From the IMG/VR virus record IMGVR_UViG_3300031223_000027, positions 1-32,093 of that record: 32,093 bases of DNA; one strand, given 5' to 3'. The translations under genes were made by a program, and so were the position numbers. Shown piece by piece: positions 2 to 16,859 of the stretch (its first letter is position 1; each line of letters starts with the position of its first letter). The notes beneath the pieces are model-generated. The model did not search any database. It was not told the origin of the DNA and saw only the letters and a program-made list of their open reading frames with translations. The stretch is from a virus.

Positions 2-1069
<1,068 letters not shown>

Positions 1070-3210: not shown

Positions 3211-3314
3211 CGGCTGGGCCACAACGAATAGGTTACTAATTTCTGTCAATAGATATATACTTTATAGAAACAAAACAAAATGAAATCACTAAGCACACAC
3301 ATTACAGAATCTTT
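3206..3314 (+). repeat. 109-bp promoter/leader/targeting-peptide cassette, copy 1
   Basis: Bases 3206-3314 match 3798-3906 at about 106 of 109 positions. Each copy contains an unidentified CATAACGGCTGGGCC block, a TATATACT box (3254-3261), an AAACAAAACAAA leader, the ATG and the first 11-12 codons. The repeat stops just after the predicted protease site, so the promoter and the N-terminal peptide were duplicated as one unit. Confidence 0.9.
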
Positions 3315-3786
3315 CGTTAACGAAGATTCAGAAAAATACGACATAAATTTACCGTTTAATGATCGTGGTTGTACTATAACAACTAAAGCTAATTTCTCAG
3401 GAGGCCAAGACGCATACTTGGTCAATCCACCTGAAAGCAATTTTAAATATGGCAGACCGTTAGTCTTTATAGACAAAAAAGAAGCAACTAATTTTTTAAA
3501 TACTAAAAAGACAGACTACGTCTCTGTTTATGCGTACAAGACAAAGTCTGAAGACTCTAACGGTCAATGGGGAATTTTTAAAAAAGGTGGATTTAGTGGT
3601 AATATGACGGAAGAGAACGAACACGACAAGTGGGGTTTGCACCTGACTAGCTTTAAAAATGAAAAAGAAGCAAAGGAATATTGCCTACTTAGTAATATGT
3701 CTCTGCAGTGGGGCAACAACGGTGGTGGTTTTGTTACTGTAAGAAAAGTTGATGGTACAACTGTGGCAGCCTATAATAAAAAATAA
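3280..3786 (+). CDS. Predicted internal head protein with N-terminal targeting peptide (168 aa)
   Basis: The first ten residues, MKSLSTHITE, are followed by Ser and are shared with five other proteins here; a seventh has a looser version. The Ile-Thr-Glu end matches the T4 gp21 cleavage rule, so the mature protein should begin at Ser11. The body contains GIFKKGGFSG and a Gly/Asn-rich 'WGNNGGGFVTVRKVDGT' near the C-terminus, and I do not recognise the fold. By analogy with the T4 internal proteins and Alt, it would be packed in the prohead core and possibly ejected with the DNA. Expression is probably late, from the TATATACT box 18 nt upstream of the ATG. Confidence 0.7.
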   Translation: MKSLSTHITESFVNEDSEKYDINLPFNDRGCTITTKANFSGGQDAYLVNPPESNFKYGRPLVFIDKKEATNFLNTKKTDYVSVYAYKTKSEDSNGQWGIFKKGGFSGNMTEENEHDKWGLHLTSFKNEKEAKEYCLLSNMSLQWGNNGGGFVTVRKVDGTTVAAYNKK

Positions 3787-3797
3787 AAAATCTAAGC

Positions 3798-3906
3798 CAT
3801 AACGGCTGGGCCACGACAAATAGGTTACTAATTTCTGCCAATAGATATATACTTTATAGAAACAAAACAAAATGAAATCACTAAGCACACACATTACAGA
3901 ATCTTT
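3798..3906 (+). repeat. 109-bp promoter/leader/targeting-peptide cassette, copy 2
   Basis: This is the second copy of the cassette at 3206-3314, with its TATATACT box at 3846-3853 and its ATG at 3872. The two proteins diverge completely right after the shared peptide. Confidence 0.9.
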
Positions 3907-4753
3907 TCGACTAAACGAGGCAGCAAAAGACGAACAAAGAATTGAAGGTATCATGAGGAAAGCTGGTGGTTCACCTTCTAAAGAGGCTCAATTTGCCAAA
4001 AATATGGCTAAATCAATAACAGGTCTAACAAAAATAGAAGCTAGGTGGCAAGCAGCAGTCAGTATAGCTGGTCCTGATAGTCCAATTACTAAAGAGTTTG
4101 CAATAGCAGCACAAGCTATGGGCTCAAAATTAGTAGACTTAGAATCAGGCTCTAAGGCAGAGACTAAAGTAATACCTAGAAAAAGAGTAGCTAATGATTT
4201 TCATATGACCGAAAATAATATGTCGCCAGTTTTAGATTTGTTTATCGAAGATAACGGCAAGGCTACTTCGAACTGCAACCAATGGAAATACAATTTTACA
4301 GACATCATTAGAGAGAAGATACGAAAAAAATACGCTAAAGATGGCAATATTCGAACAAGTGGTGATGTTGGGGTCACTTCAGGCGCGCCACTATTATTTT
4401 GGTCTGGTGACAATAAGAAATTTTATACTTTTGGTCATGCCTATAGGTATGATAACACGGCGATTGGCGGTGGTGGTGGTATGTACGGATTAAACTACTT
4501 TATTGAACATGAAGTCAGTAGTACTACGCTAAAACCAAACAAGGTTAAGATCACCCCGATAGAAGCCGACATCTTACGTAGATACAACATCGAAACATAC
4601 AGAGGAGGTAGTTTTTCTTTTGAACAAGCCAATCAGTACTTAGAAAAAGCATTAGGCCTAAGGAATAATTTCATGATTGATTCTGCTATTGGTGACCAAA
4701 ATCGAAACAATGAAATAGCATTCAGAGACTTCATAACAAAAAGAGACAAATAA
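3872..4753 (+). CDS. Predicted internal head protein with N-terminal targeting peptide (293 aa)
   Basis: It begins MKSLSTHITE-SF, identical to the 3280 protein, and is predicted to be cut after Glu10. The remaining ~280 residues have an N-terminal helical part (about 15-105) and a mixed alpha/beta part with 'GAPLLFWSGDNKKFYTFGHA' and a Gly-rich 'AIGGGGGMYG'. No catalytic signature was recognised. At this length it is closer to an effector such as T4 Alt than to the small IP proteins, but an enzymatic role would be speculation. Two terminators follow before the protease-scaffold gene. Confidence 0.7.
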   Translation: MKSLSTHITESFRLNEAAKDEQRIEGIMRKAGGSPSKEAQFAKNMAKSITGLTKIEARWQAAVSIAGPDSPITKEFAIAAQAMGSKLVDLESGSKAETKVIPRKRVANDFHMTENNMSPVLDLFIEDNGKATSNCNQWKYNFTDIIREKIRKKYAKDGNIRTSGDVGVTSGAPLLFWSGDNKKFYTFGHAYRYDNTAIGGGGGMYGLNYFIEHEVSSTTLKPNKVKITPIEADILRRYNIETYRGGSFSFEQANQYLEKALGLRNNFMIDSAIGDQNRNNEIAFRDFITKRDK

Positions 4754-5097: not shown

Positions 5098-6759
5098 ATG
5101 AACAACAAAAAACTTATCGTTGAGGTTTACCGGGGTTCACAACTAAAACAAATTCAAAGTGACACAGTACCAGCTGGTATGATGTTAGTCGAAGGTGTTT
5201 TTGGTAGAGTGGATTCTCAAAATCGCAACAAGCGTTTCTACCCGCGAGATGAGTATGCTAAACACGTTGAATTAATGCAAAAAAGAATCTCTGAAGAAAA
5301 TGGTATCTTTGGAGAAATGGAACACCCTAAATCAATGAATATTAATCTTCAAAACGTATCACATAAGATTATGTCGATTCGTTTAGACGAAGATGGATTT
5401 GTTAGAGGTCGGGTGCTCTTATTAGACACACCAAATGGTAAAATTGCCCAATCAATTGTACGTTCTGAATCAACATTGCCAATTAGCTCTAGAGCTGTAG
5501 GTAATGTAGCAGAAGGCGGCTCTGTTAAACTTGACTATATGTCTACGTTTGACCTTGTTGGTACTGCTGGATTTGCTGAAGCTGGTCTTCAACAGTCAGT
5601 GTACGAATCATATGATGGCGACGGTGCTATAATAGCAGAAACTTATGAGTATCCGTTGGATGCTCAAGGGGATGTTATTACAGAATCTGCCTTATTAGGT
5701 GTGTATGAAACAGTTGAAGCTAGATTAAAATCTAATTTTGTTTCAAAAGATGCAGTACAGGATATGATCAACGAAGCAGTGAAAGCTGCCGGTATTGAAA
5801 ATCCTGAAGATGCATTGGATGGAATGGATATGGATGATGAAATGGCTGAATCTAAAGTAGTTGCATTAATGAATGAGCGTTTTGCTACAATTTACTCGCC
5901 GATTTTAGAAAATTGGATCAAGTCTCACTTTGCACCTAGTTTTGGTCAAACAATCCAGGAATGGCTTGTTGCTGACTATGCTGCGGTTACTGAAGCTTGG
6001 ATCAAAGAAGATGTATTACCACACAATGCTGCGGTTACTGAAGCTTGGATCAAAGAAGATGTATTACCACACAATGCTGCGGTTACTGAAGCTTGGATCA
6101 AAGATGAAGTATTACCACACAATGCGGTACTTACAGAATCTTGGATCACTTCACAATTTGCACCTATGTTAGGTGAGTCAATTCAGGAATGGATTTCTGG
6201 TGACTATGCAAATGTACTAGAAGGCTGGATTACAGAATCTAAAGGTATGTATAGTGACAAAGACGAGGACGAGGACAAGGACAAAGACGAGGACGAGGAC
6301 AAGGACAAGGACAAGGACAAGGACAAGGACAAAGACAAAGACAAAGTTGATGAAATGTCACACTTATTTTCATCTAAGTTATTAGGTCAAATAAATGAAG
6401 ACCTTGCTGCTGCCAAATCTATGCCATCTGAAATGCCTAAACCTGACCAAGTAAAAGTAGATGAAGCATTTTTCTTTTCTGGTGCACCGTCATGGTTAAG
6501 AATGATACCAGAAAACCTAAAGCCAATGTGGCAAGCGCTTAATGAAACACAACGCAGTGTTGTATACAAGAGAGCATCTATTCGTGTAATGGAATCTGAC
6601 AGTGATGTTAGTAGATTTTGGAAGTCTTTAGATTTTGAAACAATGCATGGCGGCAAAGTTCGCACACGCAACGTTAATGAATCTGCCGAAGCTCAAGGTC
6701 AAACTGCACATCGCAATAGTTTTATTAGTTTCGCCAAAGGGTTGCAAGGCGGATTCTAA
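5098..6759 (+). CDS. Prohead protease-scaffold fusion (gp21 + gp22-like)
   Basis: Residues 1 to about 165 form a T4 gp21-type prohead protease, with 'GEMEHP' (His76), 'LPISSRAVG' (Ser130/131) and 'STFDLVGTAGF' (Asp151). At 194-197 there is ITE-S, a consensus gp21 cut site, so the enzyme can separate itself from the C-terminal part. That part (197-553) is acidic, helical and scaffold-like. It contains three 16-residue repeats with VTEAW (295-342), a wider duplication around them (WI.S.FAP....IQEW), a Lys/Asp/Glu run (about 385-418) and NVNE-S near the end. In T4, protease and core scaffold are separate genes. The product should build the prohead core, then cut the scaffold, the capsid protein and the targeting peptides of the internal proteins. 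The capsid gene follows after 58 nt. Confidence 0.9.
   Translation: MNNKKLIVEVYRGSQLKQIQSDTVPAGMMLVEGVFGRVDSQNRNKRFYPRDEYAKHVELMQKRISEENGIFGEMEHPKSMNINLQNVSHKIMSIRLDEDGFVRGRVLLLDTPNGKIAQSIVRSESTLPISSRAVGNVAEGGSVKLDYMSTFDLVGTAGFAEAGLQQSVYESYDGDGAIIAETYEYPLDAQGDVITESALLGVYETVEARLKSNFVSKDAVQDMINEAVKAAGIENPEDALDGMDMDDEMAESKVVALMNERFATIYSPILENWIKSHFAPSFGQTIQEWLVADYAAVTEAWIKEDVLPHNAAVTEAWIKEDVLPHNAAVTEAWIKDEVLPHNAVLTESWITSQFAPMLGESIQEWISGDYANVLEGWITESKGMYSDKDEDEDKDKDEDEDKDKDKDKDKDKDKDKVDEMSHLFSSKLLGQINEDLAAAKSMPSEMPKPDQVKVDEAFFFSGAPSWLRMIPENLKPMWQALNETQRSVVYKRASIRVMESDSDVSRFWKSLDFETMHGGKVRTRNVNESAEAQGQTAHRNSFISFAKGLQGGF
5980..6123 (+). repeat. Three 48-bp tandem repeats in the scaffold region
   Basis: Units at 5980-6027, 6028-6075 and 6076-6123 are nearly identical and encode AAVTEAWIKEDVLPHN, with KDE replacing KED in the third. 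Each unit carries a V-T-E motif resembling the prohead protease site. Near-perfect DNA identity implies recent expansion. Confidence 0.95.
6255..6345 (+). repeat. Lys/Asp/Glu codon repeat
   Basis: Imperfect tandem hexamers of the GACAAG/GACGAG type encode an alternating acidic-basic run in the scaffold. It may form a single charged helix or a flexible spacer, and its length probably varies. Confidence 0.85.
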
Positions 6760-6817: not shown

Positions 6818-8635
6818 ATGAGATATCGTACTTTAAACGAAGACCAAGCATTTGAAGGCTGGTCTGAACTAATTACAGAGTCTACTGGCGTAAAAGATGC
6901 GGGTAAACTAAAATGGATGTCGACTATGTTGCAGGTTAACGAAAACCTATTGACAGAGTCTGCACGTGGTAACATCAACGAAAGCTATGGTAGTCAAGGA
7001 CCAGAAGCAGTTCCAGGTATGGGACCAGTAAAATTTCCTGGTGTAGGACAAAATCACGGTGATATTGTATCACCTGGTTATTCTAAAGGTTCTGGTGATA
7101 TGCCAAATCAACAACTTGCTATAGCAATGAATGTTGCAGCATACACAATGGGACTTGAACTTCTACCGGTAATTCCAATGGAATTCCCTTCTATGATGTT
7201 CGGTTATTTAGATAGTGTTTACTCTGGTAATCTTGACCAAAATCAAGAAAAGCAAGGTGAATCTGATATTTTTATCGAACTATCTGGTGACAAATCTGGT
7301 ACGGCTGCAGGTCGTTACGAGAACCTAGTAAAAGGAGATAAGGTTGCATTGGCGAAAACCGCTGCAGCTGGACAAGCTCAGGCTACACAGTCTGCACTTT
7401 ATGGAACTTTTCTTGGTAAGCACAGAATTAATGGTAACCCAATCATTAAGTTTGACGGAGCGGTTGCACTTACCGGTGGTGCTGCAGCAACTGAATTTGC
7501 ATTTGGTGATGTAACTGATGTTGTACCAAGTACACTATTAAAAATTGCTGCTGGAGCAGGTAGTACATGGATTTTAGTGAAAGGCCTTTCTGGTGCTAAT
7601 GGTGAAGCTATTGCTGATATTGTTGCACAAACAGTTGCTGGTGATAACCTTACAGTTTCAGGTGATCTTGTATCTGCAGTTGACATGCACATTCCAGAAT
7701 TTACTAAGCCAGGTGCTACATATGATGGTTCAGAGCAATATACTTCAACTCGTGAAAGAGGTGAAGATGGAACTCAAAACATCGTATCTTTAAGAATGTT
7801 TAGTACTTCAGTTGAAGCTGGAACTCAAGAAGTTCTTGCTGAGATTACAAGAACTCAACTTAGAGACCTTGCTGCTTACGGACAAGATGGAATGAGTCAA
7901 ATTTATAAGACTGCCCAGAATGAACTTACTCAGTCATTAAACAAAGATATCCTCAAGACTATGTTCCGCATGGGTGTTGACTCTGCTGCAAAGCTTAGAA
8001 ATGCACAAGGTGTTGATTTCAACTTGTTTATTGGTGATCCTGCAGTTAATGCAAATAAGGACCTTGCTGATTTTGGTCTAACTGAATTTAAGGACCTTCA
8101 AGGTAGTGATAAGTTTGCTGAATTTACAGCAGTTAAGAATGCTGAAGCAAATAGTTCTGCAGAGAACAATGCTACTCGTTCTAGACGTATCCTTACAAGA
8201 ATCCTAGCCGCATCTAACTTGATCTCCTTAGTTGGTCGTCATGGTGCAGGTGATATATGTGTTATTAACGGACAATTAGCTACTGCTATCCAGGACGTTA
8301 AAGGTTTCAACTATCTGCCTTTTGAAAATCAGGTTGGATTGAATAAGAAAAACCTTTATTCTATTGGTGAAGTAAACGGTGGTATCAAAGTTTACGTTGA
8401 CCCTAACATGGCATGGTATGATAACCGTGTACTAGTTGGTCGTCGTGGTACTGATCAGGACCCAGGTCTAAAGGCGTTTATCTACACGTTAGGTGAATCT
8501 TTAGAAACTATCTCTGAAACGTCTATGGCGCCTAAGGTAGTCGTAACTTCGCGCTATGCTTTAGTTCCTGCTGGTTTCCACCCTCAGGCACAGTACATCA
8601 CTTTCGGTGTAAGCAATGACTTTGGTATTGTATAA
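6818..8635 (+). CDS. Major capsid protein (T4 gp23-like)
   Basis: The protein is 605 aa, somewhat longer than T4 gp23 (521). The N-terminal propeptide holds LITE-S (18-22), LLTE-S (44-48) and INE-S (53-56). The middle one matches the T4 gp23 site (FLTE-A), and the residues after it (GNINESYGSQGPEAVPG) resemble the T4 mature N-terminus, so cleavage after Glu47 or Glu55 is expected. The core has the gp23-type sections 'QEVLAEITRTQLRDLAAYG' and 'RILTRILAASNLISLVGRHG', and near the C-terminus 'VYVDPNMAWYDNRVLVG' and 'YALVPAGFHPQAQY'. It follows the protease-scaffold gene as 21-22-23 do in T4, and is closed by a UUCG terminator. Codon use is regular, suggesting high expression. Confidence 0.95.
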   Translation: MRYRTLNEDQAFEGWSELITESTGVKDAGKLKWMSTMLQVNENLLTESARGNINESYGSQGPEAVPGMGPVKFPGVGQNHGDIVSPGYSKGSGDMPNQQLAIAMNVAAYTMGLELLPVIPMEFPSMMFGYLDSVYSGNLDQNQEKQGESDIFIELSGDKSGTAAGRYENLVKGDKVALAKTAAAGQAQATQSALYGTFLGKHRINGNPIIKFDGAVALTGGAAATEFAFGDVTDVVPSTLLKIAAGAGSTWILVKGLSGANGEAIADIVAQTVAGDNLTVSGDLVSAVDMHIPEFTKPGATYDGSEQYTSTRERGEDGTQNIVSLRMFSTSVEAGTQEVLAEITRTQLRDLAAYGQDGMSQIYKTAQNELTQSLNKDILKTMFRMGVDSAAKLRNAQGVDFNLFIGDPAVNANKDLADFGLTEFKDLQGSDKFAEFTAVKNAEANSSAENNATRSRRILTRILAASNLISLVGRHGAGDICVINGQLATAIQDVKGFNYLPFENQVGLNKKNLYSIGEVNGGIKVYVDPNMAWYDNRVLVGRRGTDQDPGLKAFIYTLGESLETISETSMAPKVVVTSRYALVPAGFHPQAQYITFGVSNDFGIV

Positions 8636-8771: not shown

Positions 8772-10397
8772 ATGACGACTGAGGGATTCTTAAATGAGGC
8801 TAATAAAAAATGGATAGCTAAAGGTTATGAATATGACATGTCTAATTGGGTTAATTTAGACACTAAACTTAACATTAAATGTACGTTGCATGGCACAGAA
8901 TTTCAACAAAAAGCATGGCAGCACTTAAAAAGGTCTGCTTGTAGAGGTTGCAGCCGTATGAAATGGACGACCGAACAGGTTGTTATACATTTTATCGAAA
9001 CTCATGGCTCACTATATGATTACAGCAAAGTGTTGTATCGTTCTGCTACAGATAAAGTTACTATAGTTTGCAATATTCATGGTGAATTTCAGCAAACCCA
9101 CAAGAGACACAAAGAAGGCCAAGCATGTCCAATGTGCTCAGGTAGAGCTAAAAAGACTAGTCATATAGTACAGGAATTCATTAACGTGCATGGCAAAGGA
9201 AAGTTTGATTGGTCTGAAGTTAAGTATAAAGGACCTTTAGTGCCAGTTACTGTTATATGCAATGAACACGGGCCATTTTCAATAACACCAAGAACACACA
9301 TAACAGGGAAAAAACATTGCCCTAGCTGCTACAATAATCCACTTTTGGTAGAATTAGCAAGCACGCTAGAGTCTAGATGCAAACATGTACACGGAGAAAA
9401 GTATGAATACGAAGATGCTGTTTACTTAGCAAGGTCGTCAAAAATAGTAATTGCTTGCCCTAAACATGGCAACTTTAGACAAAGAGTAGACAACCATCTT
9501 AGTGGCAAAGGTTGCCCAAAATGTGCTGCTACTTGTTCAAAACAAGAGCAAGAAGTCAGAGATTTTATTCATTCATTAGGTTTACGTTTTAAGGTAAACT
9601 GTAGACAAACAATAAGCCCTAAAGAAATAGACATTGTCATAGAAAGCCATAAACTTGCAATTGAATATAATGGTCTATATTGGCATAGCAAAAAAGGCAA
9701 AAATTATCACGCTAATAAAACAGAAAGCTGTAAACTGGCTGGTTTTAGACTTATTCATATTTTTGAAGATGAATGGCTAGAAAAAAGGCAAATTGTTGAA
9801 TCTAGAATACGTAATATTTTAGGTCTTAGCAAAAACAAAATAGGTGCTAGGCAGTGTACAATTAAACAAATAGGTGCTAAAGAATGTAATGTGTTTTTAG
9901 TCGACAATCACATACAGGGTAGTGTAGGCTCTAAACATAGGCTTGGTCTTTTTTATAAAGAAACATTGGTTAGTGTTATGTCGTTTGGTAATCAACGATC
10001 TGTATTAGGATCAAAGTCAAAAATTGGACAATATGAATTACTAAGGTTTGCAGTTCTTAAACATAGCATTGTGCATGGGGCAGCCAGTCGAATGTTTGCT
10101 CATTTTTGTCAGGACAAAAGACCAGAACAAATTATTAGCTATGCAGACAAAAGATGGTCTATTGGTTCTTTATACGAAACTCTAGGTTTTACTTGGCAGC
10201 ACGATAGTAAACCTAATTATTTTTATGTTATTGGTCAACAAAGAAAACATAGGGCTCAATTCATGAAGCATAAATTAGTAAAAAGTGGTGCAGACCCAAA
10301 CATGACAGAAAAAGAAATAATGTTAAAGAAAGGCATAGATCGAGTGTATGATAGTGGACATAGCGTTTGGGTTAAGCAGTTTAGCAGCGTTGTCTAA
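8772..10397 (+). CDS. Free-standing homing endonuclease, Hef/Vsr type with zinc-ribbon repeats
   Basis: Residues 1 to about 255 contain four repeats of a C-x-x-H-G ... H ... C-x-x-C form (CTLHG/CRGC, CNIHG/CPMC, CNEHG/CPSC, CPKHG/CPKC), which look like zinc-binding DNA-recognition units with DUF723-like 'HG.KY.Y' segments. Residues about 255-350 form a Vsr-like nuclease: 'EQEVRDFI', 'KEIDIVIESHKLAIEYNG' and 'YWHSK', then 'LIHIFEDEW'. The C-terminal 190 residues resemble the conserved tail of phage Hef-like enzymes ('HIQGSVGSKHRLGLFY', 'ELLRFAVLKHSIVHGAASRMF'). Such enzymes cut intron-free or homing-free alleles of rival phages and spread their own gene. Its place directly after the capsid terminator is a typical insertion site. 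It has its own short promoter region and appears intact. Confidence 0.85.
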   Translation: MTTEGFLNEANKKWIAKGYEYDMSNWVNLDTKLNIKCTLHGTEFQQKAWQHLKRSACRGCSRMKWTTEQVVIHFIETHGSLYDYSKVLYRSATDKVTIVCNIHGEFQQTHKRHKEGQACPMCSGRAKKTSHIVQEFINVHGKGKFDWSEVKYKGPLVPVTVICNEHGPFSITPRTHITGKKHCPSCYNNPLLVELASTLESRCKHVHGEKYEYEDAVYLARSSKIVIACPKHGNFRQRVDNHLSGKGCPKCAATCSKQEQEVRDFIHSLGLRFKVNCRQTISPKEIDIVIESHKLAIEYNGLYWHSKKGKNYHANKTESCKLAGFRLIHIFEDEWLEKRQIVESRIRNILGLSKNKIGARQCTIKQIGAKECNVFLVDNHIQGSVGSKHRLGLFYKETLVSVMSFGNQRSVLGSKSKIGQYELLRFAVLKHSIVHGAASRMFAHFCQDKRPEQIISYADKRWSIGSLYETLGFTWQHDSKPNYFYVIGQQRKHRAQFMKHKLVKSGADPNMTEKEIMLKKGIDRVYDSGHSVWVKQFSSVV

Positions 10398-13492: not shown

Positions 13493-14092
13493 ATGAAATC
13501 ACTAACAAGTACGATTGCTGAATCTTTTTCTGTGACTGGATTAACAAAAACTTCAGTTAAGTTAGTACCTATTTTTCTAAAAGCTTCAGGTGAGACATTA
13601 ACCGATAGCAATGTTTATCATTGTTACTCTGTTACTAATAACTCTATATCGAGTATTACTTGGAAATCTGATGATAATATTATAGTAGACACGCAGTTAT
13701 ATTCTAACAGACCGGGTTTTCGTGGTAAACTTACAGTAGAACAGGTTAACAAACTTGGCCTTATACCAATCCGCGACCCTGATATTCGTAACATAAAAAA
13801 TGTTGCTAAGTCATTACGGTCCGATGACGATATTGCCTTATTATTATCGTGCTTTGATGCACTAGAGTTAGGTGCCGCATATGAAGTAACAACCAAAGAA
13901 GCTAGGTCAGGTAAGAGTACAGCCAGCTTTCAATTACGAGACGGTTCAACGTGCATTGTTAGCCTATATATTTCTAGTAATAAAGTTGGTGTGACTACGT
14001 CAGCCAAAACCAAGCAATATAAATATGAAGGCAATTTCGAAACGTTTTTAGAAATTGCAACTCATTACTTTTTGCTGTTTATGAAAGACTAA
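13493..14092 (+). CDS. Predicted internal head protein, variant targeting peptide (199 aa)
   Basis: The N-terminus MKSLTSTIAE-SF differs from the MKSLSTHITE group at several positions but keeps the length and an Ile-Ala-Glu cleavage site before Ser11. The mature part looks like a compact beta-rich domain ('FQLRDGSTCIVSLYISSNKVGV') and I do not recognise it. The gene lies directly after the 45-aa protein and before the gp4-like nuclease, among head-completion functions. Confidence 0.65.
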   Translation: MKSLTSTIAESFSVTGLTKTSVKLVPIFLKASGETLTDSNVYHCYSVTNNSISSITWKSDDNIIVDTQLYSNRPGFRGKLTVEQVNKLGLIPIRDPDIRNIKNVAKSLRSDDDIALLLSCFDALELGAAYEVTTKEARSGKSTASFQLRDGSTCIVSLYISSNKVGVTTSAKTKQYKYEGNFETFLEIATHYFLLFMKD

Positions 14093-14643: not shown

Positions 14644-14913
14644 ATGAAGTCATTAAGTACACACATCACGGAAAGTATGAACCCTAAGGCGCCAGATCGC
14701 GTTATTAAAATTGCCCGTGCTGTAGGTGCTAAACCAGTATGGGATCAAAACCTTAAACTTTGGGACGTATCAACTGAAGATAAACAAGTATCATTTTTAA
14801 CAGTAGACTTAGGTTTTGGCGATCCAGGTTGGCAAGTATTCACTTACGATGGTGACGAGTTATATACAGGCGACGATGACGACAAGGCACTAAAGACAAT
14901 TAATAAAAAATAA
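14644..14913 (+). CDS. Predicted internal head protein (89 aa)
   Basis: The first ten residues are again MKSLSTHITE followed by Ser, giving a mature protein of 79 aa. The mature part is small, with a basic N-terminal helix and an acidic Asp run near the end (GDDDDKA). It is in the size range of T4 IP proteins. Its leader and first 12 codons are duplicated in front of the next gene. Confidence 0.65.
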   Translation: MKSLSTHITESMNPKAPDRVIKIARAVGAKPVWDQNLKLWDVSTEDKQVSFLTVDLGFGDPGWQVFTYDGDELYTGDDDDKALKTINKK

Positions 14914-14956
14914 ACTGAACTATGAAATCATTAAGTACACACATCACGGAATCTTT
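14908..14956 (+). repeat. Second leader/targeting-peptide duplication (partner 14630-14678)
   Basis: The AAATAAACTGAACT leader, the ATG and the codons for MKSLSTHITE at 14630-14678 recur nearly unchanged at 14908-14956 (one difference, AAG/AAA at codon 2). This copy lacks the TATACATA box, so the second gene may rely on the first promoter. Confidence 0.85.
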
Positions 14957-15305
14957 TGTAAATGAAGGCAAAAAGACCAAAGAAGAAATTGAAGAAATGC
15001 GTGAAAATTTAGTAGCAAAAATTAAGTCAGGGCTGCTAAAGTTTTACAAAGAGGCCAGCATAGGGTCAATCTCAGTATTTCCGCTAGAGATCAAAATATT
15101 CTTAAACGAAAAGCCAAATAACTATAGAGTAGTTGGCACAATGAAAGAAATCAGAGATGGTTTTGAGGTATTGCTAGTCGAACGAGTTAAATCAACTAGT
15201 CGTAATAAATTGCTCATGGCTAAAAAATACGAGACTAAATTTGACGAAGTAATGAAGCCGTTGCTAGATGATTATGCTCAACTAAATATGACTAAATATC
15301 AATAA
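14922..15305 (+). CDS. Predicted internal head protein (127 aa)
   Basis: It begins MKSLSTHITE-SFVNEG, matching the 3280 and 16500 proteins through residue 15. The mature protein is rich in Lys and Glu, with helical segments at both ends and a central beta part ('GSISVFPLEIKIFLNEK'). I do not recognise the fold. It lies 8 nt after the 89-aa gene and 30 nt before the neck protein. Confidence 0.65.
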   Translation: MKSLSTHITESFVNEGKKTKEEIEEMRENLVAKIKSGLLKFYKEASIGSISVFPLEIKIFLNEKPNNYRVVGTMKEIRDGFEVLLVERVKSTSRNKLLMAKKYETKFDEVMKPLLDDYAQLNMTKYQ

Positions 15306-16155: not shown

Positions 16156-16479
16156 ATGAAACCTTTACAAGAATTAGTCTTTGAATCATTAGCAAACGAA
16201 GACAAAAAAGAAGACAAGTCAACGTCAAGAAAGCCATTAGACAGTGAACAAACAAACAAAGGTCTAGACAAAAAAGCTAAAGAGTCTGGTATGCCAATTG
16301 GTATACTTCGTGCAGTAATGCGTAGAGGTATGGGTGCATGGAACACTAGTCATCATGCTGGAATGTCACAAGAAGGCTGGGGTTTTGCTAGAGTTAATGC
16401 ATTCATTAAAAAAGGCAAAGGTACATGGGGTGGAGCAGACTCAGATTTGGCTAAAGAAGTTAGAAAGGGCAATAAATAA
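16156..16479 (+). CDS. Small head protein with targeting-like N-terminus (DUF5824-like, 107 aa)
   Basis: The N-terminus MKPLQELVFE-SLANE has the same length and Glu10-Ser11 junction as the MKSLSTHITE group, though the residues differ. The body reads 'AVMRRGMGAWNTSHHAGMSQ' and 'EGWGFARVNAFIKKGKGTWG', resembling a short phage family I recall as DUF5824 (W..GH..G....WG.ARVN.F). Function of that family is not known to me. The ATG follows a poly-A tract. Confidence 0.65.
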   Translation: MKPLQELVFESLANEDKKEDKSTSRKPLDSEQTNKGLDKKAKESGMPIGILRAVMRRGMGAWNTSHHAGMSQEGWGFARVNAFIKKGKGTWGGADSDLAKEVRKGNK

Positions 16480-16499: not shown

Positions 16500-16859
16500 A
16501 TGAGGTCATTAAGCAATCACATTACGGAATCATTTGTAAACGAAGGATTAGATTCGCCAATTCTACCAATCGGTAAAATGAATCTAAAAACTGGTAAGTC
16601 GAAATACTTTAACGTCTATGACGAGTGGAAAGAAGACTCAACTTATGAAATCTACGAACTAAATAATGGTTCAATTAGAGTAGTTATTACGTCTGGTACT
16701 AAACCAATTGCTAAACCAGATGAAATTCGATCATTTAAGCACGACCAAAACGGTAGACCTCTATTTTTTGGTAAAATGGTTGACTTTGCGGTTGGCTCGC
16801 AAATGAAAAATAAAGCTGCTAAATACGGCAACAGTATTAGTGCCTATGTTTACAAATAG
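16500..16859 (+). CDS. Predicted internal head protein (119 aa)
   Basis: The N-terminus MRSLSNHITE-SFVNEG is a close variant of the shared targeting peptide, with the ITE-S cut site kept. The mature 109 aa appear beta-rich and basic, with no recognised motif. It is the last gene before a strong terminator at 16885, so it closes the 14644-16859 transcription unit. Confidence 0.65.
   Translation: MRSLSNHITESFVNEGLDSPILPIGKMNLKTGKSKYFNVYDEWKEDSTYEIYELNNGSIRVVITSGTKPIAKPDEIRSFKHDQNGRPLFFGKMVDFAVGSQMKNKAAKYGNSISAYVYK

Follow-up and report, generated by a model that had tools for sequence, protein, structure and literature searches.

We analyzed a viral DNA stretch of 32,093 nucleotides (hereafter, the window; IMG/VR record IMGVR_UViG_3300031223_000027, positions 1 to 32,093) and found one gene that joins a T4 gp21-type protease to a long scaffold-like tail; its product is probably a self-processing precursor of protease and scaffold for the head of a T4-type jumbo phage. 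The domain content, the conservation of candidate sites, the gene order, the distribution over a clade and the lack of a detectable gp22 were established computationally. By sequence, the product is a single chain with a conserved candidate self-release site; we infer the scaffold function of the tail and the release of the protease.

The fused gene and its protease domain

The main features of the gene are given below in window coordinates; in the motifs, a hyphen after E marks the candidate cut.

5098-6759, plus strand: fused protease-scaffold gene, 553 aa, ATG start, single open frame, architecture as in relatives
5098-5607, plus strand: gp21/S77 protease domain, residues 1-170, putative catalytic H76 and S130 (PF03420, PHROG 207 and 5jbl matches; T4-aligned residues)
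5599-5610, plus strand: VYE-S, residues 168-171, most conserved candidate self-release site (column conserved in fused and split homologues)
5677-5688, plus strand: ITE-S, residues 194-197, second candidate release site (kept in PTm1/pT24 only; same tetrapeptide as in N-terminal tags)
5689-6252, plus strand: helical scaffold-like region, residues 198-385 (long helices predicted, low confidence)
5978-6148, plus strand: 48-bp tandem array, unit AVTEAWIKEDVLPHNA, each unit with VTE-A or LTE-S (repeat analysis)
6256-6344, plus strand: acidic/charged D-K-E linker (low confidence in the structure model)
6490-6645, plus strand: C-terminal helical domain, residues 465-516 (confident domain model; P-W-FW conserved across the clade)
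6670-6684, plus strand: NVNE-S, residues 525-529 (NE aligned in PTm1, TVNEA, and pT24, INES)

The frame contains zero internal stops. The Pfam profile Peptidase_S77 (PF03420) matches residues 29-139 (E 9e-10; 38.8 bits against a cut-off of 27), and the fused protein matches phrog_207 with an E-value of 5e-48. The top PDB match to the protease domain is T4 gp21 (5jbl; E 1e-8, TM by target 0.66-0.73), in which the residues H85 and S140 align with H76 and S130 of the fused protein, both invariant in the clade alignment. Thus, the profile, the catalytic His/Ser pair and the fold all place the domain in peptidase family S77 (T4 gp21). The first-pass annotation of this DNA, which put a gp21-type protease and a scaffold-like region on one chain and noted that T4 has separate genes for the two, agrees with this single 553-aa frame, its S77 Pfam match and its acidic helical tail; the motifs that it quoted (ITES, the VTEAW repeats and NVNES) were all found at the residues it named.

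An assembly slip was considered as the source of the fusion and rejected, because the separately sequenced genomes of PTm1, pT24, the Lak phages, the huge phages and the MA9V phages are also fused.

Distribution and phylogeny of the fusion

The fused gene was found in Tenacibaculum phages PTm1, PTm5 and pT24, in Lak phages (584 and 581 aa), in the huge-phage records LR756500, LR756501, LR756502, LR756504 and LR745206 (462-735 kb), in Chryseobacterium phages MA9V-1 and MA9V-2, and in about 80 environmental contigs. The lengths of the open reading frames are bimodal, i.e., 487-807 aa for fused genes (1207 and 1347 aa in MA9V) versus at most 289 aa otherwise. GenBank names such as “prohead core scaffold and protease” were set aside as evidence of fusion, since short gp21 proteins are also named in this way.

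Phylogenetic analysis of 65 protease domains places the main fused group in one clade (clade A; support 100/100) that includes the split form of Sphingomonas phage PAU, and a second fused clade (100/99; L129, L130, L140 and L182) is located elsewhere. Clade A keeps the C-terminal domain of the tail. A single origin of all fused forms was rejected (AU p=0.00017). The survey of relatives that had been suggested for fused and split versions gives two independent fused clades and, inside clade A, the split form of PAU. In L129, L130, L140 and L182, the protease is fused to a long coiled-coil tail and precedes the capsid gene.

Two side observations were also made. The annotated start of PTm1 gp300 (L009:8998) is probably too late, as the homology and the open frame run 25 codons upstream. 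Long open reading frames upstream of the protease region at L137:324-2588 and L182:7-2643 have a putative intein- or Hint-like start (VELDNGEKVISTPDHPFMKRDG).

No description of this fused lineage or of its modular expansion was found in the open-licence papers searched; earlier discussion may exist elsewhere.

Candidate cut sites and predicted release of the protease

T4 gp21 cuts after L/I-x-E (PMC9026906), and T4 Alt is cut at ITE and LTE (PMC5694885). Using an alignment of 94 proteases, in which 25 clade-A fused and 65 split proteases were counted, we found [ILV]xE at the column of E170 in all 25 of the former and [ILVMF]xE in 55 of the latter (ITES is among the split-protease motifs at that column). 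In T4, phiKZ-like phages and SPN3US, the C-terminus of the protease is known to be processed or expected to be (PMC9026906, PMC5694885). The first-pass annotation had taken ITE-S for the release site; the motif is indeed present, but ITE196-S is limited to the window and PTm1, with VTES in pT24, and is thus local to a subclade, whereas the conserved candidate is VYE170-S171. On the most parsimonious view of these sequences, an ancestral site of self-processing would have survived the fusion and come to separate protease from scaffold, and this subclade would have gained a second site.

Candidate sites continue along the tail, with VTEAW at residues 297, 313 and 329 and LTESW at 345. The tail contains 24 [ILV]xE motifs versus 7.0 expected from shuffles of the same composition, and eight [ILV][TN]E[AS] motifs (six if the three near-identical repeat copies are counted once) versus 0.09 expected (p about 0.001, the limit of 1000 shuffles). 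As a positive control, [ILV]xE was enriched at p<0.01 in 39 of 52 gp22-position proteins of split phages; T4 gp22 itself has 20 versus 10 expected. It had been claimed that every repeat unit holds a possible cut site, and each unit does bear VTE-A or LTE-S. It should be noted that the repeat sites have V at P3, where the T4 rule calls for L/I; VTE-A is therefore a less certain cut than ITE-S. The motif IKE-D in repeats 1 and 2 fits L/I-x-E; copy 3 has IKDE, and the motif is gone. The motif enrichment and the tags described below bear only indirectly on the predicted cutting of head proteins after L/I-x-E.

The capsid gene and genes of putative tagged head proteins

The fused gene is followed by the capsid gene, and several open reading frames of the window begin with T4-like tags.

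6818-8635, plus strand: gp23-type major capsid protein (Pfam Gp23)
6974-6985, plus strand: candidate capsid propeptide cut NINE-S, residues 53-56 (junction motif aligned across relatives)
3280-3786, plus strand: putative internal head protein, N-terminal tag MKSLSTHITE-S
3872-4753, plus strand: putative internal head protein, N-terminal tag MKSLSTHITE-S
13493-14092, plus strand: putative internal head protein, N-terminal tag MKSLTSTIAE-S
14644-14913, plus strand: putative internal head protein, N-terminal tag MKSLSTHITE-S
14922-15305, plus strand: putative internal head protein, N-terminal tag MKSLSTHITE-S
16156-16479, plus strand: possible internal head protein, weaker N-terminal tag MKPLQELVFE-S
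16500-16859, plus strand: putative internal head protein, N-terminal tag MRSLSNHITE-S

In T4, a capsid-targeting sequence of 10 residues brings internal proteins into the head, and its processing depends on residues 8 and 10 (PMC9026906). Seven open reading frames of the window begin with short T4-like tags (MKSLSTHITES four times; MRSLSNHITES, MKSLTSTIAES and MKPLQELVFES once each), with I and E at these two residues in six of them and V and E in the looser seventh. The occurrence of MKSLSTHITE-S on unrelated frames likely gives the phage's own cut motif. The tetrapeptide ITE-S is common to the tags, the linker at residues 194-197 and the N-terminal arm of the capsid protein, and this sharing is independent, if still inferential, support for cutting at ITE-S.

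Several side observations were made in this neighborhood. The tag and its upstream leader are near-identical between the frames at 3280/3872 and those at 14644/14922, as if copied as a module. PTm1 gp299 (L009:8014-8847) matches the window frame 44-1069 (at window 65-496), and its residues 169-212 match the capsid protein near its N-terminus, in the area of the propeptide junction (window 6980-7114; 44%, E 3e-6). The gene after the capsid gene (window 8772-10397) has endonuclease-like and Mom-like regions and resembles PTm1 gp303, which has the same location (39%).

The scaffold-like tail

The tail of ~380 aa is acidic, helical and scaffold-like, and lies immediately before the gp23-type capsid gene; it is the sole coding sequence between the protease domain and the capsid gene, the position of gp22. 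Most of it is modelled at low confidence, whereas the C-terminal domain is modelled confidently. The 48-bp array has 3.6 copies, of which copies 1 and 2 are identical (48/48), copy 3 matches at 45/48 and copy 4 at 25/48; the near-identity of the copies indicates a recent expansion. The D-K-E linker is encoded by a run of GACAAG/GACGAG hexamers (window 6256-6344), itself likely a length-variable repeat.

We looked for homology of the tail to gp22, and none of three approaches gave a significant match. HHalign of the tail against 31 T4/cyanophage-type and 14 PA5oct-type gp22-position proteins gave probabilities below 1%, equal to those of reversed controls. Scans with profiles of the gp22 type (phrog_237 family), which covered the window and the entire genomes of seven relatives, gave no match; the positive controls were found, and the same search also misses gp22 in PAU, which limits its reach. 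Foldseek against viral structures gave credible matches of the C-terminal domain to fused relatives only, which provides no link to gp22. By position and design, the tail would be the scaffold, with kinship to gp22 below detection.

A separate scaffold gene would have contradicted the first-pass annotation; no gene of the gp22 type was detected in the window or in the seven whole related genomes. Since the window is a 32-kb fragment, the evidence against a second scaffold gene comes mainly from its relatives. At most of the huge-phage loci for which the flanks were read, the portal gene comes first, then the fused gene and the capsid gene, and nothing scaffold-sized lies between.

Repeats and modules in relatives

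The 57 distinct huge-phage tails contain arrays of 10-13 (mostly 12) units of 14 residues with the consensus YSEY[IL]AENLDKNIA, a narrow range from which no scaling of repeat number with genome size can be read. The motif [ILVM]xE is kept in 680 of 682 units, where it was required of the first unit per chain only. After this Glu, N predominates in huge phages, and S or A in the Tenacibaculum group, in broad agreement with the capsid junctions INE-N and INE-S. The repeat Glu may also have a structural role.

The chains of MA9V-1 and MA9V-2 (1347 and 1207 aa) have 14 and 12 [ILV]NE[SA] tail sites, respectively, versus 0.27 and 0.29 expected, and contain a DUF5856 domain. The two genes are 90% identical in DNA and align throughout, save for small gaps and one insertion: 133 residues in MA9V-1, which start at an existing INE border and comprise the modules S...VNE (59 aa) and S...LNE (74 aa). 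A search for the MA9V modules as stand-alone proteins elsewhere found none. This gene looks like a polyprotein that gains or loses cassettes, as judged from one phage pair. Small extra segments between the repeats and the C-terminal domain are present in two other chains (L119 and L002).

The split form in phage PAU

The PAU protease gp151 (246 aa) is close to that of the window. The C-terminal domain of the clade is encoded in PAU by an unannotated frame (L011:9121-9417; E 4.6e-8 in a genome search, 1e-13 in hmmsearch with a single target), which follows gp155 directly in the -1 frame, lacks any ATG, GTG or TTG upstream of the domain, and immediately precedes the capsid gene, where split phages have the scaffold gene. 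The last codons of gp155, GCA AAA AAA AAG TAA, contain the slippery heptamer A AAA AAG (L011:9100-9420), and a -1 shift there would join gp155 to the domain. The PAU scaffold is therefore probably a frameshift-extended gp155, or else gp155 has been shortened by a sequencing error. By BLAST and HMM comparison, gp155 alone had no significant match to fused tails; the link came from the adjacent frame.

Between gp151 and gp155 lie gp152-154, all of which begin with MKT...LYEA tags. Given these tags and the probable extension of gp155, the “scaffolding” label of gp152 in the record is doubtful. Tags of the MK[TS] type ending in L[YF]E occur on at least ten PAU proteins. On whether the PAU split is secondary, the AU test gave p 0.076 and, with MA9V added, 0.020, and we only lean toward a secondary split.

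Proposed mechanism and alternative readings

In the following model, all cleavages, the role of the tail as scaffold and the sequence of steps are drawn by analogy with T4. The tail, i.e., the helical repeats, the acidic linker and the C-terminal helical domain, would co-assemble under the capsid shell as a core, and its assembly would also put the protease inside. Once the shell is completed, the S77 protease would cut after [I/L/V]xE and release itself at VYE170-S171 and ITE196-S; it would then cut the scaffold into small peptides at the repeats and NVNE-S, remove the capsid propeptide (NINE-S) and trim the MKSLSTHITE-S tags of internal proteins. The peptides would exit and DNA would enter.

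A protease:scaffold ratio of 1:1, as claimed earlier for this chain, is plausible. A T4 head needs about 576 gp22 and 100 gp21 (PMC5694885); hence, a 1:1 chain implies several times more protease per scaffold than in T4, unless a scaffold-only product is made. Such a product, extra protease-free scaffold from an internal start in the manner of lambda or herpesviruses, would move the ratio away from 1:1. Internal starts are used by lambda and Mu (PMC4378225, PMC8508860), and a Met follows the protease in 55 of 55 huge-phage genes, with raised synonymous identity in the codons before it. However, two other stretches of these genes are under equal synonymous constraint, and because these peaks are as high, the constraint was not accepted as proving an internal start. 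An ATG is missing at this position in PTm1 and pT24, M223 of the window is not conserved, and the start regions inspected have no evident Shine-Dalgarno sequence, so that this signal says nothing for or against the internal Met. We consider this dual output possible but doubtful.

If the tail were processed as a C-terminal propeptide and served only to target or restrain the protease, the scaffold would be another, unrecognised gene. The tail has no detected homology to gp22, the window is incomplete, and the C-terminus of T4 gp21 is itself processed (PMC9026906), all of which are consistent with such a role; nevertheless, it appears improbable, because tails of 350-1170 aa far exceed the short C-terminus of gp21, the fused members of the clade have no scaffold-sized gene between protease and capsid gene, and PAU encodes the end domain of the tail apart from the protease, directly before the capsid gene. 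The motifs might also be uncut by-products of a Glu-rich coiled coil, as Glu-rich helices give hydrophobic-x-Glu by chance (hence the seven expected in the tail). This is very improbable in view of the enrichment over same-composition shuffles, the near-invariant motif of the huge-phage repeats, the alignable release column and the site-bounded insertion in MA9V-1. A broader reading, in which the protease also frees folded internal head proteins that were inserted, cassette-like, from one cut site to the next, extends the precursor model rather than contradicting it, and we see its chances as even. The site numbers of MA9V, the internal DUF5856 and an insertion of exactly two site-to-site modules favor it, as do the segments in L119 and L002; against it, the evidence comes from one phage pair, whose modules were not found stand-alone, and the window chain (repeats, a charged run and a helical end) has no clear extra folded module. 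The window would then be a simple member, and the protease gene of the clade would encode a head-core polyprotein that unites protease, scaffold repeats and, in MA9V phages, several folded internal modules, is delimited by [ILV]xE-[S/A/N] and evolves as whole site-to-site cassettes are gained or lost, a proposition that could equally well prove right or wrong.

Significance and comparison with known systems

The fused gene occurs in a group of giant phages, some of which are among the largest known. The self-processing precursor is a testable candidate for this large group, including records of 635-735 kb, and may bear on the control of capsid size in them; the analysis also yields exact predicted cut sites. 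The MA9V pair provides a natural experiment on whether phage heads are built from polyproteins. The polyprotein strategy is known from small RNA viruses; if the broader reading is true, it would also operate in the head of a double-stranded DNA phage.

Compared to T4 gp21 and gp22, the window shares the protease family, fold and catalytic residues, the order before gp23, the L/I-x-E-like sites and a scaffold dotted with such sites; unlike T4, it has one gene instead of two, and a tail without detectable homology to gp22. In PTm1, PTm5 and pT24, the same kind of fused gene precedes that of the capsid protein, and VxE/ISE and ITE/VTE sites are conserved in it; the proteins of PTm1 and pT24 are 44% and 32% identical to that of the window and have other repeats. 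The records of the Tenacibaculum phages carry T4-derived names only, and no discussion of the fusion was found in the open-licence papers searched. MA9V-1 and MA9V-2 share the clade, the protease and the C-terminal domain, but their chains are longer, with inserted modules bounded by [ILV]NE[SA]. In PAU (gp151/gp155), the protease is close and the C-terminal domain is present; however, protease and scaffold are apart.

Herpesviruses (UL26/UL26.5, UL80) have a protease fused N-terminally to the scaffold, with a self-release site. The HCMV protease is a weak fold match to the protease domain (E 0.02, below significance); the catalytic family and the cut motif are different, and shell and host are unrelated. 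Lambda (C/Nu3), Mu and P2 likewise have protease and scaffold in a single gene (PMC8508860, PMC4378225). In contrast to these phages, the protease here is of the S77/gp21 type; in lambda and Mu, an internal start provides additional scaffold. The single-gene principle is thus already known from lambda, P2 and herpesviruses; here it appears in the T4 protease lineage, where it may be extended to polyproteins. At least two independent protease-scaffold fusions in the T4-type protease family suggest convergence on the design of lambda, P2 and herpesviruses.
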